From positions 1 to 43,289 of IMG/VR virus record IMGVR_UViG_3300009149_000075: DNA of 43,289 nt, one strand, 5' to 3'. The stretch comes from a virus. Position 1 is the stretch's first letter. Each line of letters opens with the position of its first letter. Both the position numbers and the translations under genes were made by a program. Below are positions 584 through 14,416 of this stretch, one piece after another. The notes under the pieces are model-generated. The model did no database searches, was not told the DNA's origin, and saw only the letters and a program-made list of their open reading frames with translations.

Positions 584-1486
584 TTACTCGTTAAATATAT
601 CATTCCAATATTCTCTAAAATGATCAAATCCAAGCTCGCTAGGCCTTTCAATGCCAAATTCATCTATTATTACTTCTGTCCAAGTTTCTAACTCCTGTCT
701 TAATTCCTCTCCTATTACTTTCTCAGTGAAAAGGGGATTATTTTTAACTTTAGGCCAGATCTTTTCTATAATAGCATTTCTTAATTCTAGTTTGGGAAGT
801 TTTCGGTCCATTCCAATATCAAGTCCTTTAATGGGGTCTTGACCTCTTTCGAAATTTACATCTTCTTTTATAGATTTTGTTCCATAGTCTTTTTCTAAAT
901 CAATTTGTTTTCTTGTAAAATTCTCTGGGTCTCCCTCCGGATGATCAGAATAAGTTCCTTTAGTAAAAGTTACTTGGAAAGGCTCTCTTAGTTTTCTCTT
1001 ATATTTCTTTCCCATTCCAGGCTTAACATAAGCTATAGTCATATGAGGCTTATATTCCGGAAATGTTTGGGTATTGGGAAACTTTGAAAATAATTCTCTA
1101 TACTTTAATAATTCGTCGGTAACTGGTACATTATACTTCACCACATCATATTCTTCTCCAGGAAAAAAATCTACCTCATCAATATCAACAGTAACAGGTT
1201 TCATATTATGCTTAATTACTTCCTTTATTGTTTCCGAGTCTACTTGGTCCTCGTGAATTCCAAATAATACAGTTATATGAGGGTCCTTCTCCAGCCCATA
1301 TGAATCATCCAATGGTTTTATATGAACATCATCCTCATCGATTCCTGCTAGATGTTGTTCCTCCCAATCATCAATTTTGGTATCCATCATTACACATCCA
1401 TAATAGTCTCTTTTGCCATTATCAATGAACTTCTTACCTTTTACGGTTTGTTCCATCAACCAGTCTTTTAGTGATACAAATCCCAT
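584..1486 (-). CDS. 2H phosphoesterase (LigT/2'-5' ligase-like) fused to an internal packaging-like tag domain
   Basis: The 300-residue product has two H-x-T motifs, PHITVLFG (His70, Thr72) and PHMTIAYV (His148, Thr150), which define the 2H phosphoesterase superfamily. Members open or ligate 2',3'- or 2',5'-phosphodiester bonds; phage members include the anti-CBASS enzyme Acb1, but nothing here proves that substrate. After the catalytic domain, residues 206-225 read IKEDVNFERGQDPIKGLDIG. This matches, position for position, the N-terminal tag of five other proteins in the window. A helical tail of about 75 residues follows. The gene looks like a 2H enzyme fused in front of a tagged protein that lost its start. 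It starts 2 nt after the ankyrin gene ends, so the two are co-transcribed. Enzyme class is firm; substrate unknown. Confidence 0.78.
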   Translation of the reverse strand: MGFVSLKDWLMEQTVKGKKFIDNGKRDYYGCVMMDTKIDDWEEQHLAGIDEDDVHIKPLDDSYGLEKDPHITVLFGIHEDQVDSETIKEVIKHNMKPVTVDIDEVDFFPGEEYDVVKYNVPVTDELLKYRELFSKFPNTQTFPEYKPHMTIAYVKPGMGKKYKRKLREPFQVTFTKGTYSDHPEGDPENFTRKQIDLEKDYGTKSIKEDVNFERGQDPIKGLDIGMDRKLPKLELRNAIIEKIWPKVKNNPLFTEKVIGEELRQELETWTEVIIDEFGIERPSELGFDHFREYWNDIFNE

Positions 1487-1488
1487 AA

Positions 1489-2481
1489 TTAGTTATTTTG
1501 TTTGGCCAATTCCCGAGCTCTCACCCTAGCTTGCTTCTTATAATCTTTTATCAGCTCTAGAGTTTCGGTTCTTCGATTTTTTCTTGCTACCTTATGAGCT
1601 TTATCATTTAAGATATGAATATCCGCTCCAGCATCCAATAGAGTTCTCACTATTTCAGTCCTACCCATTTCTGCAGCCTTGGTTAAAGCACTATAGCGTT
1701 CTACATAATAGGTTCTATCTTCTCCTGTTATATTTAGATCCGCTCCTGCATCTATCAATATTTTTACAACCTCTAGGTTGCCTGGACTACCATCGCCAGC
1801 AGCACTGATTAAGGTCTCGCCGCCAATTGTTCCGCTTCCTGAAAATCCGTTATCCAATAATATTCTGACCGCTTCAGGGTCCCCGTTTCTAGCAGCTGAC
1901 TTTAAAATTTTATTATCTTTATTATCGAGCTTAAGTCCATTCTTCAAAAATACCTTTAACATTTCTGCTGTAACTTTATAAGATAATGATCCTTGAGTAC
2001 TCTTATGATTTTTTATTTTAGCCCCTTTAGAAAATAAATATTGTACGGTATCTGGATTTCCTCTCCAAATGAATGCATCTAATACTTCATCCGTAGCTTT
2101 TGCTCCGGCGTTTATGAGCATTTTAACCGCTTCCAAAGGAAGATTCCTGGCATTTTCCAAAACATTGGTTAGGGATTTCTTTTTCATTCGGCCGGAATCC
2201 ATTATCATCTTAGCAATTTCATTATGACCTGATTCCATAGCATTTCCAAGAGGGGTTCCGTCTTCATAATTGGGATCTGCCTGATGCATTAACAAAAATT
2301 CAGCAATTTCAGTTAATCCTTTTGTACAAGCCCATTTTAAAGCCTCATCTGGTGAATACTCTCTATACCAATCTTTATTAAATTCTTCTTCAATCTGTGC
2401 CCATCTTCCAATAGCCATTGATTTTTTAGGATCCGTACCTCTTGTAAATTTAATAGCCTCAAATACGTATCTTGCTCTCAT
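1489..2481 (-). CDS. Ankyrin-repeat protein with N-terminal (V-x-E)/RGxDPK tag
   Basis: After residue about 45 this 330-residue protein is a run of ankyrin repeats, with recurring units such as GxTEIAEFLLMHQADPN, AVRILLDNG, VVKILIDAGADLN and IVRTLLDAGADIH. Ankyrin arrays are protein-binding scaffolds. Residues 1-25 carry V-F-E at 6-8, then F12-T-R-G-T-D-P-K19 and M-A-I-G at 22-25, the same spacing as four other proteins here. It is the first gene of a minus-strand unit with the 2H phosphoesterase and nucleotidyltransferase. It diverges from the radical-SAM gene across a 53-nt AT-rich spacer. No enzymatic domain is visible. A host-directed binding role is inference from the ankyrin repeats and the proposed packaging tag. 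Confidence 0.82.
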   Translation of the reverse strand: MRARYVFEAIKFTRGTDPKKSMAIGRWAQIEEEFNKDWYREYSPDEALKWACTKGLTEIAEFLLMHQADPNYEDGTPLGNAMESGHNEIAKMIMDSGRMKKKSLTNVLENARNLPLEAVKMLINAGAKATDEVLDAFIWRGNPDTVQYLFSKGAKIKNHKSTQGSLSYKVTAEMLKVFLKNGLKLDNKDNKILKSAARNGDPEAVRILLDNGFSGSGTIGGETLISAAGDGSPGNLEVVKILIDAGADLNITGEDRTYYVERYSALTKAAEMGRTEIVRTLLDAGADIHILNDKAHKVARKNRRTETLELIKDYKKQARVRARELAKQNN

Positions 2482-2534
2482 TTCAACGATTATTTTTTTA
2501 TAAATATATAGTTTGTCTATATATCTAAGCTAAT
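2482..2534. promoter_or_regulatory. Divergent AT-rich promoter spacer
   Basis: This 53-nt spacer separates the divergent ankyrin and radical-SAM genes. On the plus strand it holds TATAAATATA near 2499. On the minus strand it reads GATATATAGACAAAC, a variant of the late-promoter-like motif found before many genes here. The same GTTTGTCTATATATC string recurs near 21,497. Promoter activity is inferred from position and resemblance only. Confidence 0.45.
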
Positions 2535-3353
2535 ATGAACGAAATAAGATATCCCCTTACTTTTTCTAATGAACCAATAAAATACAGCTATTGTACCTGT
2601 AATTTTTACACGGGATGTAATAATGCTTGCGAGTATTGTTGTTGTATTAATATTCTTAGAGAGTCATGGAAAGATAATGTAAGATTACTATACAAAAGTA
2701 AAAAAGAGGCTCTTCAAAGATTCAAAGAACAGGTTGGTGAAAATCTGGAAAAATTACAGGAATATGGGGTATTCTTTTCCTTAATTACAGATCCATTATT
2801 AAAATCCACAAAAGACCTAACTTATCAAGCCATAAATTATTGTATAAAACATGATATTCCATTTAAGATTTTAACAAAACGTGCAGACTGGGGAACCGAT
2901 GAATTTTTAAAAACATATCCGGAAGATAAGAAACACTTAGCTCATTTTGGATTTTCATTAACCGGGGAGGACCAGTTTGAAACCAGAGCATCATCTAATC
3001 AACAAAGAATAGATCTGATGAAAAGCCTATATCTTGATGGATTTAAGACCTGGGTTAGTGCAGAACCAATTATTGATGTGAATTCCACAATAAAAGTATT
3101 ACAAGCTTCTAAAGACTTTTGCTATATGGTAAGGTTTGAGGTGCTATCAATGGGACACTATAAATCAAGGGAATTATCATGTGTTTATAATATTAGGGAC
3201 TTGATGGATTTATACAAATGGGTTGAACATAATTTAAGGGGAAAATTAGTCTATTGGGGGGATGGATTTCTGAAAAATATGGGATTGGATAGAGGACAGA
3301 CAAATAGTACTGGAACCGGGGATTTAATTATAGAATTGGATGAAGGCCATTAG
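2535..3353 (+). CDS. Radical SAM superfamily protein (SplB/DUF5131-like)
   Basis: Residues 28-35 form C-x3-C-x2-C (GCNNACEYC), the [4Fe-4S] cluster motif of radical SAM enzymes, and further cysteines (20, 22, 36, 37) flank it. The later FSLITDPLLKST, FKILTKR and WVSAEPIID segments match the layout of spore-photoproduct-lyase-like and phage DUF5131 proteins. The 272-residue length suits that group. Such enzymes make a 5'-deoxyadenosyl radical from SAM; the substrate is unknown, and DNA repair or modification is only one possibility. The next ORF starts inside its last codons (ATG at 3340), so the two are translationally coupled. It diverges from the ankyrin gene. Superfamily confidence is good; subfamily is tentative. 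Confidence 0.68.
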   Translation: MNEIRYPLTFSNEPIKYSYCTCNFYTGCNNACEYCCCINILRESWKDNVRLLYKSKKEALQRFKEQVGENLEKLQEYGVFFSLITDPLLKSTKDLTYQAINYCIKHDIPFKILTKRADWGTDEFLKTYPEDKKHLAHFGFSLTGEDQFETRASSNQQRIDLMKSLYLDGFKTWVSAEPIIDVNSTIKVLQASKDFCYMVRFEVLSMGHYKSRELSCVYNIRDLMDLYKWVEHNLRGKLVYWGDGFLKNMGLDRGQTNSTGTGDLIIELDEGH

Positions 3354-3888
3354 GGATTACATAGAAAAATTATGGGATCTAGAAATATTCGCATCTCTTG
3401 CAAAATTTGACTGGGAGGAGGGATATAAAAAGAGATATAGTAATTTGACGGAAGTCACCAATGATAACCTGAATTCCATTGATTTTGGTATTTATGATTT
3501 TCTGATCATAAACTTAATGAGATCAAATTTAATCTGTTTGGATATTGAGGGGCATCATAATTCCGTAAATGAATTCTATCAATTTCTGGAAAAAGAGAGA
3601 ATTGATATAAAGTCTTTATCGGCGGAAAGGACGATGAATAATGGATTACACATTTACTTTAGAAATACTCCATATATCAAATCTGAACATTGGAATGGAT
3701 TTGGGAATATACATTATGATATCTTAAATAAAAGGGCTTTTACCTCCCCATCTGTATTTAATGGAAAGGGCTATGAATGGATGTATAATTCATTTGAAAG
3801 CATAAAAAAGAGGGATGATATACCTACCACCCCTCTTTGGATTTCTTATATGCTTAGTCAAAGCACTAAATATTTTACACCAGACTAG
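3340..3888 (+). CDS. Primase-polymerase (PrimPol/AEP)-like domain protein
   Basis: The 182-residue protein contains LICLDIEGHH (Asp68, Glu70) followed about 35 residues later by GLHIYFR (His104). This resembles the catalytic D-x-D/E ... H-x-Y-F pattern of bifunctional DNA primase/polymerase N-terminal domains. A GYEWMY segment follows. Those domains start or extend DNA/RNA strands on a template. This copy is short and has no helicase domain, so it may be a stand-alone primase-like enzyme or a nucleotide-binding relative. It overlaps the radical-SAM gene by 14 nt and its 3' end overlaps the convergent amidase gene by 14 nt. The assignment rests on motif pattern only. Confidence 0.5.
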   Translation: MKAIRDYIEKLWDLEIFASLAKFDWEEGYKKRYSNLTEVTNDNLNSIDFGIYDFLIINLMRSNLICLDIEGHHNSVNEFYQFLEKERIDIKSLSAERTMNNGLHIYFRNTPYIKSEHWNGFGNIHYDILNKRAFTSPSVFNGKGYEWMYNSFESIKKRDDIPTTPLWISYMLSQSTKYFTPD

Positions 3889-4561
3889 AAACTGTTCTTA
3901 ACATTGATATTAAATTAGGATCTGGATGAACATCAAATTTTTGAGGTGCTGGCCTATAAGAAACGTGAGCCCATACTCCAGGATCCCCTGCTAATGCCTT
4001 ATCAGATACATCCCACATTTCTTCTTGATATGTTAATGGAATATTATAATGTTTGTTCCATAGTAGCAATAGTTCTCCAAGAGATCTTAATTGTGCTTCT
4101 GGATATGCTTCATAAATTTGAAACCCTCTAAATCCTTTTGCATAATGTGCTATTTCTACATCAACTACGGAATCATAAACAGTATAGAGTTTTCCATTCT
4201 TTTCTGTTAATTGACCCCAGTTATCTAATTCTATTCCGATGGAATGTTTATCTAATGATGATTTACCGGCTCCAAGATGATAGGCCCAATATTTAGAGGA
4301 GAATAGTTGGTTAATGGTTCCATCTCTATCAATTACAATACAGGTTCCAATATTGGATTTATATTTTTTCCAAGTTTGTAAATCACCTCGAATACCGGGA
4401 CCAGAAACAGTATGGTGTAATACTATTTGTTTTTTATCAAATTCTTCTTTATAGTATCGATCCCAATCTACCATTTGTAGATCCTTGTCATCTAATTCTA
4501 ATGGTTTTAGATCACTCCACTTATTGGATCCATAAACCGTTACTTCTTTAATATCAGCCAT
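3875..4561 (-). CDS. N-acetylmuramoyl-L-alanine amidase (Amidase_2 endolysin)
   Basis: The 228-residue protein has the Amidase_2/T7-lysozyme pattern. It contains IVLHHTVSG (His49/50), then YWAYHLGAGKSSLDKHSIGIEL around 91-111, then VWAHVSYR (His198) and FDVHPDP (His211, Asp213). These supply the expected zinc ligands and the D-P turn. The enzyme would cut the amide bond between N-acetylmuramic acid and L-alanine, breaking the wall at the end of infection. No signal peptide is seen, so it needs a holin or other release route. It is monocistronic on the minus strand, converging with the primase-like gene and preceded by ATATAAAATAAA. An alternative is a tail-associated lysin, but the compact single domain favours endolysin. 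Confidence 0.85.
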   Translation of the reverse strand: MADIKEVTVYGSNKWSDLKPLELDDKDLQMVDWDRYYKEEFDKKQIVLHHTVSGPGIRGDLQTWKKYKSNIGTCIVIDRDGTINQLFSSKYWAYHLGAGKSSLDKHSIGIELDNWGQLTEKNGKLYTVYDSVVDVEIAHYAKGFRGFQIYEAYPEAQLRSLGELLLLWNKHYNIPLTYQEEMWDVSDKALAGDPGVWAHVSYRPAPQKFDVHPDPNLISMLRTVSSLV

Positions 4562-4701
4562 GAGATATATTTTATTTTATATATTCCACAAAAAAAAGAG
4601 TTAATTAAATTAACTTCTTTTTGTAACGTTTTTCTGACGGAAAATTGACCATTACGAAATACCCATTTATTTAATAGATACTAAGAATATAAAAAGAAAT
4701 T
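4562..4701. promoter_or_regulatory. Divergent promoter region with AT-rich hairpin
   Basis: The 140-nt spacer lies between the divergent amidase and small membrane-protein genes. On the minus strand ATATAAAATAAA (4570-4585) resembles the late-promoter motif used elsewhere. At about 4589-4622 an inverted repeat (A-run, AGTTAAT, ATTAACT, T-run) could act as a terminator or attenuator in either direction. Its role is unclear because no gene ends here. Confidence 0.4.
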
Positions 4702-4905
4702 ATGAAAAAGTGGTTAATTATTTTAGGTATTTTAATCGTGGCTTTAGTTGGATTATCTTTGGAATCATCATCCCATCATAAAGAAAAAAATCCTCCAAAA
4801 ACTCATGAGGAGAATTGGGAGGATTCAATATCAGATCTTCAAGAAACTTTTGATCTTTCCAATGAAGAAACAGGTGAAATTAAGAAATTAGTTTTGTCGC
4901 ACTGA
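4702..4905 (+). CDS. Small N-terminally anchored membrane protein
   Basis: The 67-residue product begins MKKWLIILGILIVALVGLSL, a single hydrophobic anchor or uncleaved signal, then a charged, acidic tail. The layout fits a small phage membrane protein, possibly a lysis accessory because it is divergent from the endolysin gene. There is no lipobox cysteine and no recognised domain. Its last codons overlap the convergent 108-residue gene by 26 nt. A holin usually needs more than this one helix plus tail, so that name is not given. Confidence 0.5.
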   Translation: MKKWLIILGILIVALVGLSLESSSHHKEKNPPKTHEENWEDSISDLQETFDLSNEETGEIKKLVLSH

Positions 4906-5206
4906 TAACCTTAGTCCATTTTTCAGAAAGCCCATATCCTGTGGCCGTTTCTTCCATAATTCCGATCTTAATAAATGCTGCAACTGTCTGAGCTGCGCTT
5001 TCTCTGACATCCCCAACTATTTCATATAATTCGGCATCTGAAAAAACTGGGGTTGTATTTGTTTCCAACTTTTTTTTCATTTGATCCTCTATATTAAGCT
5101 TCATTAATTTGCGGGAGGCAAATGGAATAGATAGATGCTCGTCAAATTCCCCATTATCAACTCTCTGAAGAGTTCTGTCTAAAAATATTTTTGCTGCTTG
5201 ATCCAT
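4880..5206 (-). CDS. Hypothetical protein, 108 residues
   Basis: I do not recognise this protein. It is mostly helical and soluble with mixed charge, and no cysteine or obvious catalytic motif is seen. The C-terminal part (FIKIGIMEETATGYGLSEKW) could be a winged-helix-like wing, but this is weak. It stands alone on the minus strand. It is preceded by CATATAAATAATAAAAC at 5214-5230, a good late-promoter-like match 8 nt before the ATG, so it is probably a real gene expressed late. Confidence 0.55.
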   Translation of the reverse strand: MDQAAKIFLDRTLQRVDNGEFDEHLSIPFASRKLMKLNIEDQMKKKLETNTTPVFSDAELYEIVGDVRESAAQTVAAFIKIGIMEETATGYGLSEKWTKVISATKLIS

Positions 5207-5397
5207 AGTGTTTGTTTTATTATTTATATGGACCGGTGGAGTAAAAACCCTGCATAATTGGATCTTTAACGTGGCTTTAACGATAATATTTTAGGAATTT
5301 TTTAACAAAAAAATAAAAACTTTTCTTCTTGCGGTCATAGAATTAGAGCAAAGCAACTCAGGAAAGAAAGTCTTCTTAGTATCTAGTAAGAAAAGCT
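5207..5397. other. Intergenic spacer with no confident gene
   Basis: This spacer lies between divergent genes. Apart from the promoter-like motifs at its ends it shows nothing clear. One plus-strand frame from about 5295 to 5451 is open and reads like protein, but it lacks a usual start codon and its end overlaps the tagged gene at 5422. It may be a gene remnant. Confidence 0.3.
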
Positions 5398-5413
5398 GGA
5401 TAAATAAAGAAAA
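5398..5413 (+). promoter_or_regulatory. Late-promoter-like motif GGATAAATAAAG
   Basis: GGATAAATAAAG occurs 12 nt before the ATG of the tagged protein at 5422. The identical 12-mer occurs with identical 12-nt spacing before the gene at 9571. It contains ATAAATA, the core of the T4 late promoter TATAAATA. Function is inferred. Confidence 0.5.
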
Positions 5414-5421
5414 CCCGACAA

Positions 5422-5919
5422 ATGAAGTTAGTTTCCCAAACATTAAATGAATATCAAAGGGGTCAAGACCCAAAAAGATCTTTACGTATAGGTCAAAAAC
5501 ATATCATTCAAGATATTACTAGTAATGATTTAGAAGACCTCGAACCACTTTATGATGGCAAAGGTGGGATTGGATCTTTTGAAGACTTTAAAAAATATGT
5601 AGATGAAGCAAGTTATGGATATGACTATTCTAATGATGATGAATTGATGAAAGACTATGATCGTCTAGATAAAATTGCTGTAGCTCTAGGAGATAGTTTA
5701 GAGTATGGTGAATTTTTTGACCACCACGAATTTGATCAGATGGGGCCATATATTGATAAATACAAGCCAAAAGGAAAGGATTATATCTATAATGCCTATC
5801 CAGGAGGAGATGGGATCCAATTAGTTTTCTCTGATATATTTCTTCCAGCAGCAGAAGAAGTCGACGTAGATGATATAGATGATGAGGGAGGAATAAATTT
5901 TGGAGAGTTTGATATTTAA
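5422..5919 (+). CDS. Acidic 165-residue protein with N-terminal (L-x-E)/RGQDPK tag
   Basis: Residues 8-10 are L-N-E, followed by Y-Q-R-G-Q-D-P-K-R-S-L-R-I-G to residue 24. This is the tag shared with five other proteins, here with the spacer between Glu and the aromatic residue shortened by three. The body is very acidic and rich in D, Y and G (EVDVDDIDDEGG near the end). No domain is recognised. The strong acidity resembles DNA-mimic proteins that block nucleases, but composition alone does not prove that. It is a single-gene plus-strand unit with its own promoter-like motif, meeting the convergent GIY-YIG gene by a 4-nt overlap. Confidence 0.7.
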   Translation: MKLVSQTLNEYQRGQDPKRSLRIGQKHIIQDITSNDLEDLEPLYDGKGGIGSFEDFKKYVDEASYGYDYSNDDELMKDYDRLDKIAVALGDSLEYGEFFDHHEFDQMGPYIDKYKPKGKDYIYNAYPGGDGIQLVFSDIFLPAAEEVDVDDIDDEGGINFGEFDI

Positions 5920-6659
5920 TTCTTCTCTATATAGGTGTGAACAGCCTTTTTATATTTAGGAGAAGATTGATGAATTTTTAAATTTCCTGGATCATAATAC
6001 CTTCCACAATGTTCACATAATATTTTTTTCCTTTTTAAAGCGGATTCTTTTTGCATATTCCTGGTTTTATCAGATCTTTTTATTCCAGATATACTAATAG
6101 ATAATTTTTTATTTTTTATTTCATTCAATTTCAGCGCTTCATCTTCCCCAAATTTTTTTACCCAGACTTTAAAAGCGGAGTTTTTAAACATAGGATTTTT
6201 ATTTCCTGCTCTTTTTCCGACATATTTTAATTTGGTTTCTTCCGACTGATAACTTCCTGCTCTAATTTTTCTAATTTTTTCTCGAGCCTTAGTAGAGTGG
6301 GTTTTGCCATACATCCCATTTCTTTTTCCTGTGTTTGAAATTCTTATTTTTTTCTTTGTTCCTTCTGTAAGTTTTGATAGATTAACACCATATCCACCAT
6401 CAGGACTAATATTATATCCTTTAGGAGATAGGGTTTTATAATTTTCTATTAATGGTTTTTGAGCATAGTATGCCTCATCTTTAGCATTAAAAAATTCAAA
6501 AATCTCTTTTTTAAAATTTTTCCTTCCGTACTTCTTTAAAGCTTTTTTTATTAATACCCCACTTCCCATATATCCATCATCCAAGTTATCTGTTGAATGA
6601 TCCCCGATATATTGTTTGCCATTAATTAAATTAGTAATGATATAAGTATAAAAATACAT
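5916..6659 (-). CDS. GIY-YIG homing endonuclease with NUMOD-type DNA-binding repeats
   Basis: The N-terminus (MYFYTYIITNLINGKQYIGDHS) is the Y-x-Y ... Q-Y-I-G core of the GIY-YIG nuclease fold, followed by YMGSGVLIKKALKKYG, typical of the Seg/I-Tev group. The middle has NUMOD3-like basic motifs (GKRNGMYGKTHS, GKRAGNKNPMF). The C-terminus has a C-x2-C ... H ... H zinc-finger-like element (CEHCGRYY). Such enzymes cut intronless or intron-lacking relatives and spread their own gene. It sits 2 nt downstream of the RuvC-like gene with no visible intron. It is a free-standing homing endonuclease of 247 residues, intact and AT-rich. Confidence 0.88.
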   Translation of the reverse strand: MYFYTYIITNLINGKQYIGDHSTDNLDDGYMGSGVLIKKALKKYGRKNFKKEIFEFFNAKDEAYYAQKPLIENYKTLSPKGYNISPDGGYGVNLSKLTEGTKKKIRISNTGKRNGMYGKTHSTKAREKIRKIRAGSYQSEETKLKYVGKRAGNKNPMFKNSAFKVWVKKFGEDEALKLNEIKNKKLSISISGIKRSDKTRNMQKESALKRKKILCEHCGRYYDPGNLKIHQSSPKYKKAVHTYIEKN

Positions 6660-6661
6660 TA

Positions 6662-7285
6662 TTATATTCCATTTTTTTCTTTAAAAGTAGCAACACAAAA
6701 ATATGCATCAACCAAATCATCAAGATGGTCAATCCAAGTTCCGGTTTTCTTTTTAAATAAATCGGGGTTCTTATTAATTGTTTTGGACAGATAATTATCA
6801 TTCTTTAGAATAAAAGAATCAATCATTTCTTTTTTGCCCATTCCTTTCTTAGATGCTCCAGCAGTCTTCTTTAATGTAATTGGAGCATAAGTAGTCATAT
6901 TATCCCATGGAACAGTTTCATTAAAAAAAGCTTCCATAAGAACATATTTATAACCGCCTAATTGAATAGCCATATTCCCAGAAGAAGCATATGAAATTCC
7001 TTCAAATATTACTTGCCATTCCTTTGGATCACCATCTGGAAGACTAGTAATAATTAAATCAGTTAAATACATGGCATTTTCTACTTCCCACCTCATTTTT
7101 ATGGATGAATCTTTGCCTTTATACTTTTCGTCCTCCCTATCAATGACAGTTACGCCTGCTTCCTTAAATATGTCTTTGATTCTTTCGCTTAGACCGAATG
7201 GCCAAGACATGAAATCGTACTTCCCATTATCATAGATACAAGCTGCTGGCTTGTTAATGGAAAAATCTAACCCTATTATTTTCAT
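6662..7285 (-). CDS. RuvC-like Holliday-junction resolvase / RNase H-fold nuclease
   Basis: The start MKIIGLDFSINKPA supplies the first catalytic Asp (7). VIFEGISYAS supplies a Glu (95), and HLDDLVDAYF near 187-196 supplies the closing acidic pair (Asp190/Asp193). This is the D...E...D-x2-D layout of RuvC-family nucleases. In phages these resolve branched DNA before packaging, replacing T4 gp49. The 207-residue length fits. It is followed by the homing endonuclease and preceded by three tagged or small genes in the same direction. It is also possible that it is a distinct RNase H-like nuclease. Confidence 0.68.
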   Translation of the reverse strand: MKIIGLDFSINKPAACIYDNGKYDFMSWPFGLSERIKDIFKEAGVTVIDREDEKYKGKDSSIKMRWEVENAMYLTDLIITSLPDGDPKEWQVIFEGISYASSGNMAIQLGGYKYVLMEAFFNETVPWDNMTTYAPITLKKTAGASKKGMGKKEMIDSFILKNDNYLSKTINKNPDLFKKKTGTWIDHLDDLVDAYFCVATFKEKNGI

Positions 7286-7296
7286 TTAATTTATTT

Positions 7297-7548
7297 TTAA
7301 CCTAATAATTCTCTTAGTGCATCTCTAACCTCTTTAGCAGCATAAAGTCCTACCCGAAATTCTTTGCCATTAGAAAGATTGACTATTATTTGTGAAGGGC
7401 TTTCATCCGGATTGTTTCTGTAGACAAATCCATCCACAATATCCATATCCCCAGGCTGTCTAAACCTATCCCTGCCAATCGACATTCCTTTTTTAGGATC
7501 CCCGGTTTTTTCAAACCACACATTTTCATTGACAGTTTTGGCTTTCAT
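7297..7548 (-). CDS. Small tagged protein, 83 residues
   Basis: Residues 1-25 carry the shared tag: V-N-E at 6-8, F12-E-K-T-G-D-P-K19, and M-S-I-G at 22-25. This is identical in spacing to the ankyrin protein and the two copies at 13,611 and 13,961. The remaining 58 residues look like a small beta-rich domain (IIVNLSNGKEFRVGLYAAKEVRDALREL). No family is recognised. It lies 1 nt downstream of the 73-residue gene and 11 nt upstream of the RuvC-like gene, so it is part of a minus-strand operon. Confidence 0.7.
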   Translation of the reverse strand: MKAKTVNENVWFEKTGDPKKGMSIGRDRFRQPGDMDIVDGFVYRNNPDESPSQIIVNLSNGKEFRVGLYAAKEVRDALRELLG

Positions 7549-7549
7549 C

Positions 7550-7771
7550 CTAATATCCTCTTCTACGATATTCTCTTCCCTCTACATCATCAAATTCGCC
7601 CTCTTCTTCATACCATCTTTGGTATTCTCTGGAGTTTTTATTAACCCATCTTCCATTCAACATGGTGTAATCGGGATCGTTTTCTGGAGAATCATAATCC
7701 CCATCGTAATATTCATTAATGAACTTGTCTACGGATTCATTTACTAGTTTTGTCCTCATATCTTTATTCAT
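7550..7771 (-). CDS. Small acidic/tyrosine-rich protein, 73 residues
   Basis: The product is hydrophilic, rich in D, E, Y and R, and unrecognised. The N-terminus has L-V-N-E-S near residue 10 and F-I-N-E near 18. These resemble the (L/V)-x-E step of the tag and the F-I-x-E of T4 capsid-targeting sequences, but the R-G-x-D-P-K part is missing. It is tightly packed between the glycine-zipper gene (1-nt gap) and the 83-residue tagged gene (1-nt gap), which supports a real operon member. Confidence 0.55.
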   Translation of the reverse strand: MNKDMRTKLVNESVDKFINEYYDGDYDSPENDPDYTMLNGRWVNKNSREYQRWYEEEGEFDDVEGREYRRRGY

Positions 7772-7772
7772 A

Positions 7773-8147: not shown

Positions 8148-8164
8148 GAATGGCTTTTATTTAT

Positions 8165-8743
8165 TTATCTTCTTGGAGTTCCAACATTATAATTTTCATC
8201 ATCAATCCTTCTTAAAATATTATATCGATTATATCTTAGATTCATGGTAAATGTATTAAATTGGGCTGCGGATTGTGCATATGAAATCTCAAACTGCGAT
8301 ATATTTGTAGGAATAATATATTCATATGAAAATACTACCAATTCGAATCCCTTATGATCTAGAAAAGAAACATACATTGGAGGCCAAAATGGGACGGTGT
8401 CCCCATAATCTAAAAACTTTTCAATTTGTTCAAAGAGAATCCAATAAGATATGAAGCTCTCAGTTAGTTTAAATGTAAGTGTTAAATTTTTATCCAATAG
8501 TGGCTCCATTTCTTTTCCTGGCCTATATTGAATATTGAATTGACCTTGCTGTTGGGAAACATTGTTTAATTCAACGCTTGGAAAGGTTATACTCTGAACA
8601 CAAGCATTTATAAAATCCTCCAAATTTTCATATGGAAGTTTCATTCTTTGCACAATAGGATCCCATCTATTTCTGATTTCGGGATAGAAAAATCCCTTAG
8701 GAAACCTTACTACAAATTGGTTACTTAAATTATTGAGAATCAT
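8165..8743 (-). CDS. Tail-tube-fold / baseplate structural protein
   Basis: The 192-residue protein is beta-rich with the signature of phage tail-tube-like proteins: a long strand (LDKNLTLTFKLTESFISYWILFEQI), F-W-P-P-M-Y-V-S-F-L-D, then FELVVFSYEYIIPTNI and a closing FNTFTMNLRYNRY strand. It could be the tail tube initiator (T4 gp54-like), a tube terminator or a second tube protein; the main tube protein is at 21,596-22,192. Its start is preceded by AAAGGAG, one of the few Shine-Dalgarno-like sites here, and by GATATATAAAGAAAAGG. It heads the minus-strand set 8743 to 6662. Confidence 0.5.
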   Translation of the reverse strand: MILNNLSNQFVVRFPKGFFYPEIRNRWDPIVQRMKLPYENLEDFINACVQSITFPSVELNNVSQQQGQFNIQYRPGKEMEPLLDKNLTLTFKLTESFISYWILFEQIEKFLDYGDTVPFWPPMYVSFLDHKGFELVVFSYEYIIPTNISQFEISYAQSAAQFNTFTMNLRYNRYNILRRIDDENYNVGTPRR

Positions 8744-8750
8744 GGAAACT

Positions 8751-8767
8751 CCTTTTCTTTATATATC
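8751..8767 (-). promoter_or_regulatory. Late-promoter-like motif GATATATAAAGAAAAGG with overlapping SD
   Basis: On the minus strand this motif precedes the tail-tube-fold gene. It combines the recurrent GATATATAAA core with a purine-rich AAAAGGAG that could be a Shine-Dalgarno sequence. Confidence 0.45.
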
Positions 8768-8820
8768 GAAACTATTTATGTCCGATCCGCTATAAAAATA
8801 AATTAAAATAAGATATTAAT

Positions 8821-9459
8821 ATGTCCGAAGAAAAGAAAACTGAAAACACTACAGGAACATTAGAAATTAGCAATCCGGATGAGCTAAATGAAAAACTCAC
8901 TGCCGCAATTGAAAACAATGAAAATAAACCTACGGAAGAAGAAGTTGAAGCAAAAAAACTAGAGGTTGAAGAATCTTCTAAGAATTTTTCTGTTAAATCA
9001 TGGGATATAGGAGACGGGGAAAAGGCCCAGTCCTATATAGATTACATTGCCCATTTTATGAGAAATAGAATTTTCTGGACTAAAAATGGATGGATGGGAG
9101 TTCTTAAAATGAATGAAGAGCTTAAAGATGCAGAAAAGTTTATAAAAGAGAATCCAGGACAACCATTAAAATTAGGTTATCAGGCTATGGAATTTCTTTT
9201 TTATTCTTTCCAAAATCCGGGGGGAATTGGTTTACAAGCTGCTCAGGATTTTGAATCAGAAAATGATACTTATGCCGAAGTATTTAATGATCTAGGCGAG
9301 CAATTAGCTGCTGCAAGAAAGGAATTAAAAGATATTCAATTTATGCAGGAACAATATGTCGCTATGCAACAAGGTTTTTTCCTAGAAGTAGAGGAAGAGA
9401 CTGAGGAAGCCCCGGTGCCAGAGGAAACTCCAGCACAAGAGGAGGTGGCTGACAAATAA
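8821..9459 (+). CDS. Acidic-ended hypothetical protein, 212 residues
   Basis: I do not recognise this protein. Both termini are Glu/Pro/Thr-rich and probably disordered. The centre (about 55-180) is folded and helical, with aromatic residues (FMRNRIFWTKNGWMGVLKMNEELKDAEKFI; YQAMEFLFYSFQNPGGIGL) and then a coiled-coil-like segment (LGEQLAAARKELKDIQFM). There are no catalytic motifs. It is a single-gene plus-strand unit preceded by CTATAAAAATAAATTAAAA and closed by a strong terminator at 9484-9514, so it is probably well expressed. A structural, chaperone or internal role is possible but not shown. Confidence 0.6.
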   Translation: MSEEKKTENTTGTLEISNPDELNEKLTAAIENNENKPTEEEVEAKKLEVEESSKNFSVKSWDIGDGEKAQSYIDYIAHFMRNRIFWTKNGWMGVLKMNEELKDAEKFIKENPGQPLKLGYQAMEFLFYSFQNPGGIGLQAAQDFESENDTYAEVFNDLGEQLAAARKELKDIQFMQEQYVAMQQGFFLEVEEETEEAPVPEETPAQEEVADK

Positions 9460-9483
9460 ATAATTATTCCTTTATATTTCAGA

Positions 9484-9514
9484 GGGGATCCTAAAACTAG
9501 GGTTCCCTTTTTTT
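9484..9514 (+). terminator. Rho-independent terminator
   Basis: GGGGATCCT (9484-9492) pairs with AGGGTTCCC (9499-9507), including two G-U pairs, with a short A-rich loop and a seven-T run after it. It lies just downstream of the 212-residue gene. Confidence 0.75.
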
Positions 9515-9546
9515 GTATAATATAAGTAGACCTGATGAATAAATAC

Positions 9547-9563
9547 GGATAAATAAAGTAAAC
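9547..9563 (+). promoter_or_regulatory. Late-promoter-like motif GGATAAATAAAG
   Basis: The same GGATAAATAAAG string as at 5398, again exactly 12 nt before the ATG. It starts the unit 9571-11382. Confidence 0.5.
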
Positions 9564-9570
9564 AGAAACT

Positions 9571-9957
9571 ATGGAAAAATGGTTAAAAAAGAATCTTAAG
9601 TATATCACACTTATATTCTTAGCCCTATTTTTAATAAAAAACACGCAAAGCTGTAACAGAAAAATGTCTCTAAGGATATTAGAAAAAGACCTATCAGAAC
9701 AATGCGATTCCTTATTAACAATTAAGGATGAAATAATCTCTAAAAAGACTTTGGAAATTACAAATCTGCAAAAAAATCAAGTTGTTCAGGATTATTACAT
9801 TAAGGATTTGGAAAATGAATTAAAAATAGCTGGGGTTAAGGTTGATGCTGCAGAAAGGAGAGCAAATGCTGTACAACAAACTGCAGAAAAAATTCGAGCA
9901 AACACTACTATACAAATAAAAGGTGCTGAACAAGATACTTTAAAAATAACGGAATAA
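9571..9957 (+). CDS. Membrane-anchored coiled-coil protein (inner-spanin-like)
   Basis: The 128-residue product has one N-terminal hydrophobic helix (ITLIFLALFLI, about 11-23), then a cysteine and a long heptad-like coiled coil (LEKDLSEQCDSLLTIKDEI ... VDAAERRANAVQQTAEKI). A single inner-membrane helix with a periplasmic coiled coil is the layout of an i-spanin, but the layout is not unique to spanins and no partner o-spanin lipoprotein is obvious. Its stop overlaps the ATG of the next gene (TAATG at 9955-9959), so they are coupled. The name is tentative. Confidence 0.5.
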   Translation: MEKWLKKNLKYITLIFLALFLIKNTQSCNRKMSLRILEKDLSEQCDSLLTIKDEIISKKTLEITNLQKNQVVQDYYIKDLENELKIAGVKVDAAERRANAVQQTAEKIRANTTIQIKGAEQDTLKITE

Positions 9958-10970
9958 TGAAAAAATTTTTACAAAGGGGAAAGAAGTTATATTGGTGGTT
10001 AATAGGAACTTTTGCTGTTCTTTATTTAGCAGTGGCATTTGTATCTACTCTTCACGCAATAACTTTCTTTCAATTAGCTAACACCATGGGATTAGCTATA
10101 TTATTAGGGGCTGCTTATGAAATAGGTCAAGCAACAGTATTATTTTCGATACTAATGTCCCAGAATAGACAAAAGCTTCTTGCATGGGCTATGATGTTTT
10201 TGCTTACCGCATTACAGGTCACCGCGAATGTCTATGCCTCGTTTAAATATATGGATATGAGCCAATCTACAGATTGGACATACTGGCAGCGAGCTATATT
10301 ATTCGGGGTTCAAGCTGAATCCGCTGAAATGTATAAAGTGATCATTTCCTGGATTTCAGGGGCATTACTCCCGTTAGTAGCATTGGGCATGACAGCATTG
10401 GTTGCTGATAATATTAAAATGGCTACAGAAGAGGGCGAAAGGGATCCATTAGCTCCAGATAGGGCGGAGGAGATAATTGAGAATGAAGTAAAGAAAAGAC
10501 TTGAAGAGAAGGGAGGGGATGAGCCATTATTTGGGAATTTATTTAAAAGAAAGAAAAAAGATCAAGTAGAAATCAATCCAATAACCCCAGATACTTTAGA
10601 ATTTATTGATGATGAGAGTCTGGATGAGGAATTTCCTTGGGAAAAAGAAGATAGAGCTGAAGAGGATATCGAAGAATTAAAAGATATTATAAAGGAGGTA
10701 AAAGCCCCTGAACCAACGATTGAAGATGTAGCAGAAGCTGCAGAGGAAGAAATTCCTGAAATTACTTTAGAAACTACAACTAAAACTGTAGATGCACATC
10801 CTGCAAAATACGAAGAAAAAGGTGACGGGAAATTCTATCCTGCACCAATGAATAAGATGAGAGGATGGCATCTGATGAATGAATATGTTGATGATGATCA
10901 TAATGTATTTGAAAAGGGCAAATTCATAAAACACGATTTGGATAAAATTCCAACCTCAAAAAAAGCATAG
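9957..10970 (+). CDS. Four-helix membrane protein with acidic cytoplasmic tail (0-frame product)
   Basis: The 337-residue 0-frame product has four hydrophobic helices at about 12-35, 41-66, 70-92 and 123-148. A long acidic tail follows (DPLAPDRAEEIIENEVKKRLEEK; EFPWEKEDRAEEDIEELKDIIKEV) and then a folded-looking segment (GDGKFYPAPMNKMRGWHLMNEY). I do not recognise the family. The gene ends at a -1 frameshift signal (10958-11007), so a longer form is probably also made. It is coupled to the preceding spanin-like gene by TAATG. A role at the host membrane is likely from topology alone. Confidence 0.65.
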   Translation: MKKFLQRGKKLYWWLIGTFAVLYLAVAFVSTLHAITFFQLANTMGLAILLGAAYEIGQATVLFSILMSQNRQKLLAWAMMFLLTALQVTANVYASFKYMDMSQSTDWTYWQRAILFGVQAESAEMYKVIISWISGALLPLVALGMTALVADNIKMATEEGERDPLAPDRAEEIIENEVKKRLEEKGGDEPLFGNLFKRKKKDQVEINPITPDTLEFIDDESLDEEFPWEKEDRAEEDIEELKDIIKEVKAPEPTIEDVAEAAEEEIPEITLETTTKTVDAHPAKYEEKGDGKFYPAPMNKMRGWHLMNEYVDDDHNVFEKGKFIKHDLDKIPTSKKA

Positions 10971-11007
10971 GGGCGAGCGAAGATACAGGGGTTAAGGAGC
11001 TCGTCCC
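10958..11007 (+). promoter_or_regulatory. -1 programmed ribosomal frameshift signal
   Basis: In the 0 frame the last codons are TCA AAA AAA GCA TAG, so 10958-10964 is a classic A_AAA_AAA slippery heptamer. After a 5-nt spacer (10965-10969) comes a stem: GGGGCGAGC (10970-10978) pairs with GCTCGTCCC (10999-11007) through 9 bp with one G-U, around a 20-nt loop. A GTTAAGGAG purine run lies in the loop and 3' arm. The -1 frame is open for 90 codons beyond the site. All three parts of a -1 frameshift signal are present in the correct order and spacing. Confidence 0.8.
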
Positions 11008-11236
11008 AGAAATAAAGGACCCAATAAAGGAACTTAATAAACCCACTCCAGGGACAGAATTGTTGGAAAGACTAAAAAAACAGGAAGAGGTGAGGCCTAA
11101 AGTTGAGAAAAAGGATGATTTTGTTGGCACTATAATAGATGGGGTTGAAGTAGTTGATGTCAAAGCTATACCAACAAAAAAAGATGAAACCAAATTAGCT
11201 GTATCAGAAGAAAGAAAAACATGGGACAAACCTTAA
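10964..11236 (+). CDS. -1 frame extension of the membrane protein (frameshift product C-terminus)
   Basis: After a -1 slip on A_AAA_AAA, reading continues from AGC at 10964 for 90 codons to TAA at 11234-11236. The full frameshift product would be 426 residues. The extension is charged and Pro/Lys/Glu-rich (VKELVPEIKDPIKELNK; TPGTELLERLKKQEEVRPK; FVGTIIDGVEVVDVKAIPT), similar in composition to the tail that precedes it. It has no ATG near its beginning. The alternative is an indel in the A-run splitting one gene, but the downstream stem argues for programmed recoding. Confidence 0.7.
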   Translation, partial: SIGASEDTGVKELVPEIKDPIKELNKPTPGTELLERLKKQEEVRPKVEKKDDFVGTIIDGVEVVDVKAIPTKKDETKLAVSEERKTWDKP

Positions 11237-11382
11237 GAAATATCGAGGAAGTTAGGAGAATCATTCAAGAGGAGATGGGACAGATTGCTAAAACCAATAA
11301 TCTAGATCTCCAGGACGTCAGCATAAATTTGGATGAAAGAAAAATGAATGTCACTTTTGGTTTAGGTCTTTATTTTGTCTAA
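11221..11382 (+). CDS. Small hypothetical protein, 53 residues
   Basis: The ATG lies inside the end of the -1 extension. The product has a helical first half (LRNIEEVRRIIQEEMGQI) and a beta-like second half (VSINLDERKMNVTFGLGLYFV). No family is recognised. It closes the unit 9571-11382 and is followed directly by a terminator, which supports its being a real last cistron. It is short enough that its coding status is moderate. Confidence 0.5.
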   Translation: MGQTLRNIEEVRRIIQEEMGQIAKTNNLDLQDVSINLDERKMNVTFGLGLYFV

Positions 11383-11407
11383 ATCACACTTACATATCGC
11401 ATTAATT

Positions 11408-11432
11408 AAAGAGGGCTAGAACCTCTTTTTTT
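11408..11432 (+). terminator. Rho-independent terminator
   Basis: AAAGAGG (11408-11414) and CCTCTTT (11422-11428) form a stem around a 7-nt loop, followed by a T-run. It ends the membrane-protein unit. Confidence 0.75.
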
Positions 11433-11466
11433 ATTTGAATAAATAGATAAAATAAATGCGTTTACA

Positions 11467-13611
11467 ATGGCAACCACAGACTTATTCAATAACCCTAATA
11501 ATGATTACGTAAATCCTGGTCTTTCCCCATGTCAAGGATCAAGTGATGATGCCTATTTTGGCATTGGGAATGGAAATGCGGAAATAACCTCTGGTTCCCA
11601 AATATTAGCTTCCCTAGATTTTTCAAATGTAAAAATTGGGGTTTCCGCATGGAGTGTGGAAACCAAGATAATTGGTGAAAGAGAGGTAGTTTATATTCCG
11701 GGATTAACAAAAGGCTTGCAAAAAAGACAGCAGGGATTTATCATACCCAATCTTGTAAGTGATGATTATGATCTAAATCCATATTTTTTACAAGTAGATC
11801 TTTCTATTAATTATTATCAGAATTTCAGATACACATATACTAGTATAGATGCATCTGCGAATTATGACCAAAATTTAACTATTGCGGACGCATTAAATAT
11901 AGCTTTAGGAACTGCCGGAATTAGTGCTACCGCAACCTATGATCCTAGCGCATTAACATTTACTGGTACGATAGATGGATACGATTTTACTATTTCTAAT
12001 GTAGTTCTATCCTTAATTGATGCTTCTGAAAATTCTTCATCTCCATTCGCATATCAATCAAACGCAGATTCATATGATCTAGTGGAAAATCCAGATCTAA
12101 AATATTTATATGCAAAATATCCAAATGGTGCTGTACAGGGAATTGTTATGAAAGGTATTTATCCGACAACAACTCCAATGACCCCATATGATAAATGGCT
12201 TAACATATTTCACGTTAGTGATATGATAACTCTTTATACCGAAATAGAAATTGATAATTTCATAACAGATATACAAAAAACAACAACAATAACATTTGAT
12301 CCAGACGTTACATTTGGACCATTTGTAGATGACGTAGATGTTAATGTTAAAGATATATCATGTGTTTCTACTGGATATACCTATGATCCTAGTTATGGAT
12401 TACCAACTTATAATGCAACTGTAGATAATTCAGTTTTATTATATGCTTCTTATTCATTTTCCACAATAACAAATTCTATAATTGAATATAGCGGGATTTC
12501 AGATTTTAGAGTTGCAGATCCATCTGGATGGCATATTTCGGATTCTTCAGTTTATGGATCAGATCTATATGATAATAATGTTGGAGCAAATGATCCAGAT
12601 TCTTTCATTGAAAATTCATTTATATCAGAATCTTCTATTAATACAGTAGATGTTTCTGGATGTTTAATCCAAAACTCCTATGTCAAATATGGTTTAATCA
12701 GAAATTCCGATATCGCTTGTTTATGGTTGCTAGAAGATACATCAATTCTTACTTCCACAATTAGCAATTTTGATGCTGAGGGTAATGATTTTTATAATTC
12801 TGGCATTTCAAACATGGTTTTAACTTCTGGCGGAATTTACGATTCTTCAATCTTAGATTCTTCGATAGTTTCTTCTACTGTATCCGGATCTTTAGCAGAA
12901 AATTTAGATGTTAGTTTAGGAACTATTTCCGATACCTATATTAAGGATTCATTCTTTTTCGAATCGGATATCGAGGATTCGTCCATATTAAATTCTGTAG
13001 TTAATAATGCATCTTCGATAACAAACTCCGTATTTGAAGGAGGATATACAAATGCTTATAAATTAACAATAAATGCGAGTTTAGGACTTTATGAATGGGT
13101 TATAGATGATCCTACGTTAAGTATTGATGATTCATCAAGTAGAGTTGGAATTCAAACCACCACTATTCATGATTCCTCAATAAACAATGCCACCATTTAT
13201 GATTCATCGATTTATACATCATACCTTCAAGATGCTTCTTTAATAAGATGTACTCTTTATAATGTTGAGGTGGACTCATCCTCCGTAACATATGAAGATT
13301 GCCGAATCGTTCAAATAAACATGACTGAGGATTGTTCTATTACATGGGACGTGGATTCATCAACATATTATCAAAAATCAATAAAAAATGTTGAGGTTGG
13401 TATGAATGGATGTTCTACCGATGAAGCTATCAGTGCTGGAGATTATCTAGATTGGATTAATACAAATAATTACTGGAATAAATTCGGGGATATGTATGTT
13501 TGGACTACGGCTCCAGATGGATGTTCGGATTGTCATAATCTAATTGATGGTTTCTATGTTTATAATCCACATACATTCAGTGTTAAAATAGAATATATGT
13601 TATTTATCTAA
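11467..13611 (+). CDS. Beta-helical appendage / tail-fibre-like structural protein
   Basis: The 714-residue protein is rich in Ser, Asp, Ile and Tyr. Residues about 320-620 form an irregular array of short I/V-x-(D/N)-S-S-I steps (ENSFISESSINTVDVSG; IYDSSILDSSIVSSTVSG; IHDSSINNATIYDSSIYTS). This is the kind of five-to-six-residue rung expected for a beta-helix or pentapeptide-like solenoid. The N-terminal 200 residues look globular. A cysteine-containing C-terminal domain follows (CSITWDVDSS; CSDCHNLIDGFYVYNPHTF). A phage surface or fibre role is likely from composition; no family is recognised. Its stop overlaps the next ATG (TAATG, 13609-13613), coupling it to two tagged proteins. Confidence 0.6.
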   Translation: MATTDLFNNPNNDYVNPGLSPCQGSSDDAYFGIGNGNAEITSGSQILASLDFSNVKIGVSAWSVETKIIGEREVVYIPGLTKGLQKRQQGFIIPNLVSDDYDLNPYFLQVDLSINYYQNFRYTYTSIDASANYDQNLTIADALNIALGTAGISATATYDPSALTFTGTIDGYDFTISNVVLSLIDASENSSSPFAYQSNADSYDLVENPDLKYLYAKYPNGAVQGIVMKGIYPTTTPMTPYDKWLNIFHVSDMITLYTEIEIDNFITDIQKTTTITFDPDVTFGPFVDDVDVNVKDISCVSTGYTYDPSYGLPTYNATVDNSVLLYASYSFSTITNSIIEYSGISDFRVADPSGWHISDSSVYGSDLYDNNVGANDPDSFIENSFISESSINTVDVSGCLIQNSYVKYGLIRNSDIACLWLLEDTSILTSTISNFDAEGNDFYNSGISNMVLTSGGIYDSSILDSSIVSSTVSGSLAENLDVSLGTISDTYIKDSFFFESDIEDSSILNSVVNNASSITNSVFEGGYTNAYKLTINASLGLYEWVIDDPTLSIDDSSSRVGIQTTTIHDSSINNATIYDSSIYTSYLQDASLIRCTLYNVEVDSSSVTYEDCRIVQINMTEDCSITWDVDSSTYYQKSIKNVEVGMNGCSTDEAISAGDYLDWINTNNYWNKFGDMYVWTTAPDGCSDCHNLIDGFYVYNPHTFSVKIEYMLFI

Positions 13612-13685
13612 TGAAAGCTCAATTCGTAAATGAAAATATCCGCTTCGAAAGAGGACAGGATCCTAAACATTCCATGGGGATTGGA
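13611..13685 (+). repeat. Direct repeat of tag-coding DNA, copy 1
   Basis: About the first 57 nt differ from the copy at 13,961 at only three sites, all silent. After a short variable stretch the next 11 nt are again identical, then similarity stops. This marks tag-level duplication, not whole-gene duplication. Confidence 0.85.
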
Positions 13686-13964
13686 ATGAGGGATGAAATA
13701 GTTTCAAAATTCGAAGAGGAGATGATGGAAAAATGGCCGGATCTGGATGAGGAGGAAATCATGAAAATACATCCATCTTATATTGAATTTGATATGTTTC
13801 CCCTCTCTACCCATGGAATGAATAGCTTGGATAGAACTATTAAAAAAGTCCTTCGTCAAAAAGAATATAGACCATTTCTTAAATATGTTAATGATGATAA
13901 TTATGAAGAATTGGAGATGGAAGATGTTTACGATGAAGAGACTATTTATGTTAAAATCCTATGA
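13611..13964 (+). CDS. Tagged protein, 117 residues (first of a tandem tagged pair)
   Basis: Residues 1-25 are the clearest form of the shared tag: V-N-E at 6-8, F12-E-R-G-Q-D-P-K19, and M-G-I-G at 22-25. The rest is acidic and helical (IVSKFEEEMMEKWPDLDEEEIMKI) and unrecognised. It is coupled on both sides: TAATG with the beta-helical gene before, and ATGA (13961-13964) with the second tagged gene after. The first 57 nt are nearly identical to those of the next gene although the bodies differ, so the tag was recently duplicated. Confidence 0.72.
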   Translation: MKAQFVNENIRFERGQDPKHSMGIGMRDEIVSKFEEEMMEKWPDLDEEEIMKIHPSYIEFDMFPLSTHGMNSLDRTIKKVLRQKEYRPFLKYVNDDNYEELEMEDVYDEETIYVKIL

Positions 13965-14035
13965 AAGCTCAATTTGTAAATGAAAATATCCGCTTCGAAA
14001 GAGGGCAAGATCCTAAAAGAACTATGGGGATTGGT
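13961..14035 (+). repeat. Direct repeat of tag-coding DNA, copy 2
   Basis: Second copy of the tag-coding segment, 350 bp from the first. The boundary of similarity coincides with the end of the M-x-I-G motif. Confidence 0.85.
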
Positions 14036-14416
14036 GATTGGAGTATTAAACGGGCTCTTTTAGATCAAAAAGATCTTCAACCTGGAAGTATGGAATACGA
14101 TGCTCAAAAAGATTGGTGGGATAATGGAGGAATACCCGATGAATTCAAGAAAGAAATAGGATATTCTGGCGATCCCAATGAAATTGTAGGATTTGACCTC
14201 GATTACTACGTAGAAAATGAATTGCCTGAATCTATAGATTATGATGATTTTAAAAACACCTTTACTGATCTAGATATAGTCAAAAGATTGCCCAATAAAA
14301 ATGGTTGGGGAACATTTATATGGAGAAAGGGAAAACTGGATGATGGATCTCCAGCATATTACTATGTAGATGGAATGGGCACTGGATTTTTATCAAGAAA
14401 GGAATGGTTAAAATAG
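13961..14416 (+). CDS. Tagged protein, 151 residues (second of a tandem tagged pair)
   Basis: Residues 1-25 repeat the tag of the preceding protein almost exactly (V-N-E; F-E-R-G-Q-D-P-K-R-T-M-G-I-G). The body differs: it has a YSGDPNEIVGFDLDYYVENELPES region and a C-terminal beta-rich end (GTFIWRKGKLDDGSPAYYYVDGMG). No family is recognised. The start overlaps the previous stop by ATGA. Twelve nucleotides separate it from the glycine-rich gene. Shared tag with unrelated bodies implies that the tag, not the body, decides where these proteins go. Confidence 0.72.
   Translation: MKAQFVNENIRFERGQDPKRTMGIGDWSIKRALLDQKDLQPGSMEYDAQKDWWDNGGIPDEFKKEIGYSGDPNEIVGFDLDYYVENELPESIDYDDFKNTFTDLDIVKRLPNKNGWGTFIWRKGKLDDGSPAYYYVDGMGTGFLSRKEWLK

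Follow-up and report, generated by a model that had tools for sequence, protein, structure and literature searches.

The DNA analysed here ("the window": the whole of IMG/VR virus record IMGVR_UViG_3300009149_000075, positions 1 to 43,289) is a 43-kb virus fragment, recognizable as that of a T4-type myovirus by its terminase (24792-26729), tail-tube and sheath genes (the sheath assignment relies on a match to annotated relatives and on sequence). Six of its proteins share a short peptide, referred to below as the tag, that precedes otherwise unrelated bodies. On the evidence of sequence, the tag probably marks cargo of the phage head: proteins that would enter the prohead, be released by its protease and, again probably, be injected.

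The tagged genes

All six tags listed by the initial annotation are present, and an alignment profile of the tag gives six matches in the window and no more (E 2e-18 to 6e-7). Five are N-terminal (a slash marks the predicted cut): MRARYVFE/AIKFTRGTDPKKSMAIG (2407-2481, minus strand) on the ankyrin protein 1489-2481 (ankyrin Pfam E=2.7e-30); MKLVSQTLNE/YQRGQDPKRSLRIG (5422-5493, plus strand) on protein 5422-5919; MKAKTVNE/NVWFEKTGDPKKGMSIG (7474-7548, minus strand) on protein 7297-7548; and, both on the plus strand, MKAQFVNE/NIRFERGQDPKHSMGIG (13611-13685) on protein 13611-13964 and MKAQFVNE/NIRFERGQDPKRTMGIG (13961-14035) on protein 13961-14416. The sixth, KSIKE/DVNFERGQDPIKGLDIG (812-877, minus strand; profile E=3.3e-12), with its predicted cut after the Glu, lies inside a 2H phosphoesterase (584-1486, minus strand), the 2H domain of which occupies approximately residues 60-174 (Pfam 2_5_RNA_ligase2 E=3.2e-8). 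The initial annotation had described this copy as internal, which it is, but it is no oddity, being part of a two-module protein with a tagged C-terminal module. The cut-site forms are VNE (three times), LNE, VFE and IKE. The spacing previously described also holds: the Glu stands four residues ahead of the aromatic residue in five of the six tags, while in the sixth (5422-5919, LNE-YQRG) the two are adjacent. So does the claim that the bodies are unrelated: they fall into six different sequence clusters. They comprise the ankyrin protein, the C-terminal module of the 2H protein and four small families that have no Pfam match above cut-off.

Among named phages, the Lak megaphages of Prevotella come closest (terminase about 36% identical; in the sheath region, a DNA match of 64.7%). 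Synteny with the window is seen in two IMG/VR contigs, G012 and G013 (terminase 67% and 63%, sheath 70% and 69%, respectively); G013 has a tagged ortholog of 5422-5919 (36% over 152 amino acids) and G012 a homolog of the body of 13961-14416 (33.5% over 155 amino acids). A third related contig, G009 (132.8 kb), includes head genes, and its capsid protein has 48.6% identity with the Lak-B5 counterpart. Tag loci on more than 20 contigs came from three degenerate DNA scans of IMG/VR, the contigs afterwards being read for tags; a match in G025, within a 732-amino acid structural open reading frame (ORF), was excluded from the tag set as chance-like. A degenerate DNA pattern for the core of the tag has matches in 20 of 20 records searched, three of them within the window, and a reversed control pattern has none. 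The phages that bear the tag are a group of uncultivated T4-like phages.

Two separable parts

Extended to these relatives, the motif that the initial annotation had drawn from the window is found on many non-homologous genes: there are 147 unique tag copies on the related contigs, and 143 bodies fall into 95 clusters. Two parts of the tag are separable: the cut-site element (V/I/L)-x-E, with S or N next, and the core F-E-R-G-x-D-P-K-x-x-M-x-I-G, whose commonest residues recur in the 147 copies as F146 E111 R144 G135 x D107 P137 K109 x x M97 x I106 G141. The Glu stands at the standard distance from the core in 112 copies; in these, P3 is V, I or L in 100, P1' is S (54) or N (26), the next residue is hydrophobic or Q, and the one after that is mainly N or D. 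Codon variety at the conserved residues is about that of the rest of the same ORFs, so that the tag is conserved as a peptide and not as DNA; a DNA-level element such as a recombination site was rejected on the same ground (codon entropy near background).

Profile searches for the tag in Lak-A2, Lak-C1, PAU, PTm1, MaF61 and LR745206 gave no match, and tblastn of one tag or of a six-module chain found none in INPHARED, a 25-residue query being a weak probe. Bacterial genomes yielded one match, in an uncultured Bacteroidetes bin. Among the N-terminal motifs shared within parts of Lak-A2, PAU and MaF61, a FERG-like core is absent and there are only a few prefix-like starts. The strings FERGQDPK, FERGLDPK and FERGxDPK do not occur in a text search of the literature.

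The cut-site part also begins proteins that have no core. Prefix-only starts of the form (V/I/L)xE(S/N/A/V) are found in 60 of 721 genes, compared with 1.0% at control positions, and a subset of them reads LVxESLEEF. One such small protein of the window, MRTKLVNE/SVDKFINE (7550-7771, minus strand), represents this second N-terminal class. Another case adjoins the tagged pair: the G012 and G013 orthologs of protein 14429-15151 (plus strand) begin with the prefix straight before the conserved body (MRANKISDTINE/WGGAGYSIYGG and MRAKTIQETLNE/FGGAGYAVYGG, respectively). Since the prefix occurs without the core, either of the two parts may do the targeting. (The signature LVxES(L/V)(E/D)(E/Q)F without the FERG core is seen at 7550-7771 in the window, at G013:9406-9627, G009:105507-106241 and G020:8182-8745, and in many other places.)

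Chains of tagged modules

In the relatives, tags follow one another in 18 ORFs, two to seven per chain and with a usual spacing of 80-150 residues. The longest chain (G026:20432-17112) has 1107 amino acids and seven tags; none of this size is visible in the window, whose 2H protein is a small instance of the same architecture. Chains reveal a rule about the cut site. The Glu is within five residues of the Phe in all 49 internal copies (exactly four residues away in 48) versus 72 of 98 N-terminal copies (Fisher p=1.3e-5, a value that serves only as a guide, since the copies are related and the test overstates their independence). Most of the 26 N-terminal copies that lack the Glu start M-N-FERG, M-D-FERG or MRAQ-FIRG, forms in which the core opens the protein; the cut-site part can thus be absent from such proteins and, for that reason, is not the defining element of the tag. 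Eight cargo families have members of both kinds, single genes and chain modules, and in three of these the lone gene lacks the Glu while the internal copy has it (G003:24382/G019:10034, G008:3835/G010:7025 and G003:53958/G003:53191). The simplest reading of these sequences is that the Glu would be a cutting site, required only where something must be removed, and that the core would be retained by every product.

Modules can be duplicated inside one chain (G003:21654, at 119 and 264). A Pfam and NCBIfam scan of the chains found no family above cut-off except ankyrin repeats, and single-sequence structure prediction of a six-module chain was unusable (pLDDT 38).

Links to the head

G009 and G006 encode a gp21-like head maturation protease (Pfam S77 3.3e-16 and 4.7e-17; PHROG 207 E=1.7e-40 for G009, where it lies at L039:6768-9302), joined in one protein with a long scaffold-like half; the gene of a gp23-like capsid protein comes next (PHROG 138 E=1.7e-33). 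The specificity of the T4 prohead protease is L/I-x-E (PMC9026906). The capsid protein of the relatives aligns with T4 gp23 over the known cut (HALNE/AEMGG versus SFLTE/AEIGG; T4 from NC_000866), and the protease-scaffold protein is rich in (I/V/L/M/F)-N-E sites, with nine compared with 1.3 in shuffles. The initial annotation had proposed looking for such a protease near the motif: relatives G009 and G006 do encode one, but the window fragment has neither a head protease nor a capsid gene. No S77 protease is seen in the window, G012 or G013 fragments, the head genes lying beyond them. (Two side observations on proteases: short S77-like genes in G003 (49733-50209) and G019 (31562-31942) adjoin a RecA-like gene, and their head-protease DHP motif reads GYP; and in a huge phage, LR756504 (L090:644-2938), the protease-scaffold protein contains the unit YSEYIAExLDxxI repeated in tandem, each copy with the T4-type site IAE.)

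The capsid protein does not carry the tag. The tagged protein G009:27380-27838 holds a copy of a capsid-protein segment (capsid residues 89-145; blastp E=5e-7), and the PHROG 138 profile independently matches this protein and its G006 counterpart (E 0.004 and 0.001). What it has in common with the gp23 family is the N-arm segment alone, without homology over the capsid fold. Another protein, G009:87635-88189, begins like the capsid propeptide (MKELTQAEITTKWGPML; 45% over 40 residues) on a different, unrelated body, and this start is perhaps a second way into the prohead. Finally, G022:23356-23982 (L115:8356-8982), near two tagged genes, is a Lar-family restriction-alleviation zinc ribbon (TIGR03655 E=6e-7, under the curated cut-off) fused to the capsid cut region YANLTE/NAVGGVSAP (47% over 59 residues, E=1e-7), which makes it a candidate capsid-borne anti-restriction protein.

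Probable late expression

The T4 late promoter motif is TATAAATA (PMC3014915). A similar motif, [A/G/T]ATAAATA, stands 20-30 bases ahead of the start codons, on the coding strand, of the sheath, tube, tape-measure-like and fibre-like genes, and is likely to be the late promoter of this phage group. One example, GATAAATA (5399-5406, plus strand), lies 23 bases ahead of tagged gene 5422, and the motif also precedes the G012 and G013 counterparts of this gene; it occurs in the window at 8162-8169 as well. Tagged genes 13611 and 13961 come directly after a fibre-like gene. Several tagged genes belong to probable late operons.

Cargo bodies and their turnover

Cargo turns over at fixed slots. In the interval bounded by endolysin-like gene 3875-4561 and RuvC-like gene 6662-7285 there is one tagged gene in the window, its ortholog in G013 and a six-module chain in G012; between the fibre-like gene 11467-13611 and 14429 there are two tagged genes in the window, three in G012 and none in G013. 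The slot on the far side of the RuvC-like gene also varies among the three. (A GIY-YIG homing endonuclease-like family, assigned by eye, is found at 5916-6659 in the window and in at least 14 places in the relatives.)

Few bodies are recognizable: ankyrin repeats, weak zinc ribbons and a family that is leucine-rich-repeat-like by eye. Basic, DNA-binding cargo was considered and rejected, the bodies being no more basic than other proteins (median pI 6.0 versus 6.4). The 2H protein has a superfamily-level relation to the anti-CBASS protein Acb1 (Pfam 0.006; 0.0015 for the G013 ortholog); comparison of the 2H protein with solved structures gave no match. The G013 ortholog of the 2H protein (G013:30884-31858) stops ahead of the tag position and adds a GNAT domain; this GNAT-2H protein is untagged. 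The N-terminus of the window 2H protein, MGFVSLKDWLME/Q (1451-1486, minus strand), resembles the T4 capsid-targeting sequence (CTS), MKTYQEFIAE/A, by eye only. (At the corresponding position G013 has the linker that joins GNAT to 2H, SFNNWLSE/Q, which resembles both this start and the T4 CTS.)

Proposed head cargo and the alternatives

The proposed course of events is as follows. Tagged cargo would be made late and taken into the prohead along with the scaffold; the gp21-like prohead protease would cut after the Glu of (V/I/L)-x-E, each freed product keeping the core FERGxDPKxxMxIG at its new N-terminus; the product would remain in the head with the DNA and probably be delivered into the next host. 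Several cargoes can be encoded as one chain, which would be split during head maturation. Cutting by the S77 protease, location in the head, injection and the identity of the targeting part are all things that we infer. The core is favoured as the sorting signal because it is common to all copies. An extension of the scheme, somewhat less likely than not, is that cargo is modular: effectors made as polyproteins of up to seven modules would enter the prohead together and be set free there by the maturation protease, with the common sorting tag kept on each.

Several considerations weigh against head cargo carrying a core as its signal, in addition to the discount on the Fisher test: 1) The link to the head rests on G009 and G006, the window and its closest relatives, G012 and G013, stopping short of the head genes. 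2) The only S77-like genes of G003 and G019 are short ones, set aside as head proteases because they are probable inactive paralogs. 3) The late-promoter motif is directly upstream of only a minority of the tagged genes. 4) The core as a targeting signal is without precedent, and the T4 internal proteins show no core match. 5) Prefix and core may differ in their job, the prefix also existing alone.

The last point leads to the most serious rival, in which targeting to the capsid, as in T4, is the task of the removable prefix (M-K-A/L-x-x-V-x-E), and the core acts after the cut, for example in DNA binding or ejection guidance; the proteins would still be head cargo. The core-less prefix on the 14429 orthologs and many other genes speaks for this proposal, as does the removal of the targeting part in T4 (PMC9026906), but core-only proteins (M-N-FERG, about one quarter of the N-terminal copies) have no prefix, and chain modules carry just the short (V/I/L)-x-E. 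Such modules might be carried in by a neighbour, an option that lone core-only genes do not have. We regard the proposal as unlikely. It is decidedly improbable that the signal has nothing to do with the head, and that some other protease acts on the chains inside infected cells while the core directs the products to a different site or partner (the membrane, the replication compartment or RNA polymerase). Bodies mostly of unknown function, the distance of some tagged genes from the head genes, and core-only genes that require no head protease would fit such a scheme; a cut site of prohead-protease form that matches the capsid protein of the same phages, capsid segments on tagged and neighbouring cargo proteins, and late-type promoters do not. 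Most improbable of all is that the tag is no signal, just the first element of an old small-domain family that duplicated and diverged past recognition, or a gene-fusion hot spot: some bodies are interrelated and a module is duplicated inside a chain, but the same 14 residues stand ahead of ankyrin, zinc-ribbon and many unrelated bodies and after a 2H domain, the codons vary freely, so that DNA identity is not what is kept, and the Glu is invariant exactly at the positions that need a cut.

What would follow if the tag does mark head cargo? Head-borne injected proteins are a main attack on host defences and are hard to spot, their bodies being small and unrelated. The cargo of the whole phage group could then be listed from sequence, its repertoire readable by one motif: some 95 families, nearly all without known function, would become candidate anti-defence proteins. 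In the modular scheme the prohead protease would act as a polyprotein-processing enzyme. Protease-cut chains would give a phage a new means of providing many cargo proteins at a constant ratio. The tag is, moreover, a potential loading signal for phage protein delivery.

Comparison with known systems

The closest parallel is with the T4 internal head proteins (IPI, IPII, IPIII and Alt), whose CTS is cut by gp21, a Peptidase S77. There, too, diverse small bodies stand behind one N-terminal signal; the predicted cut follows hydrophobic-x-Glu, an S77 protease and a gp23-like capsid protein are encoded in the relatives, the cargo slots vary, and late expression is likely here. The T4-like tag proposed by the initial annotation survives in this respect: there is a prohead-protease-like (V/I/L)-x-E site, relatives have a protease and a capsid protein with a matching site, and there are indirect links to the capsid. 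The tag is not the T4 CTS, however. The tag profile has no significant match in T4 ipI, ipII, ipIII, gp22, gp67 or gp68, and likeness by eye to MKTYQEFIAE is limited to the N-terminus of the 2H protein. Nor does a removed signal of the T4 type fit: the T4 signal is a 10-residue peptide that is taken off, while the 14-residue core comes downstream of the proposed cut, and the product would keep it. The tag would work like the T4 capsid-targeting system but, by the tests made, is not a member of it: it lacks the T4 peptide, and its conserved element would not be removed. T4 internal proteins are, in addition, encoded as single-cargo genes; here there are chains of up to seven.

In giant phages of the phiKZ/SPN3US type, head and ejection proteins have propeptides, many head proteins being cut after a short x-x-Glu by an S77-type protease, and these phages carry a big internal protein load. 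They are a different lineage, and PMC9026906 describes neither a retained common core nor chains. Polyvalent proteins of phages and conjugative elements (PMC5512222) likewise have several domains per polypeptide, and are predicted to be packaged and delivered, some of them with processing (P1 DdrB). They are defined by recognizable enzyme domains, often with a metallopeptidase of their own; Pfam and NCBIfam find no recognizable effector or enzyme domain above cut-off, and no metallopeptidase, in the tagged chains, in which it is instead a repeated tag and cut site that separates the modules.

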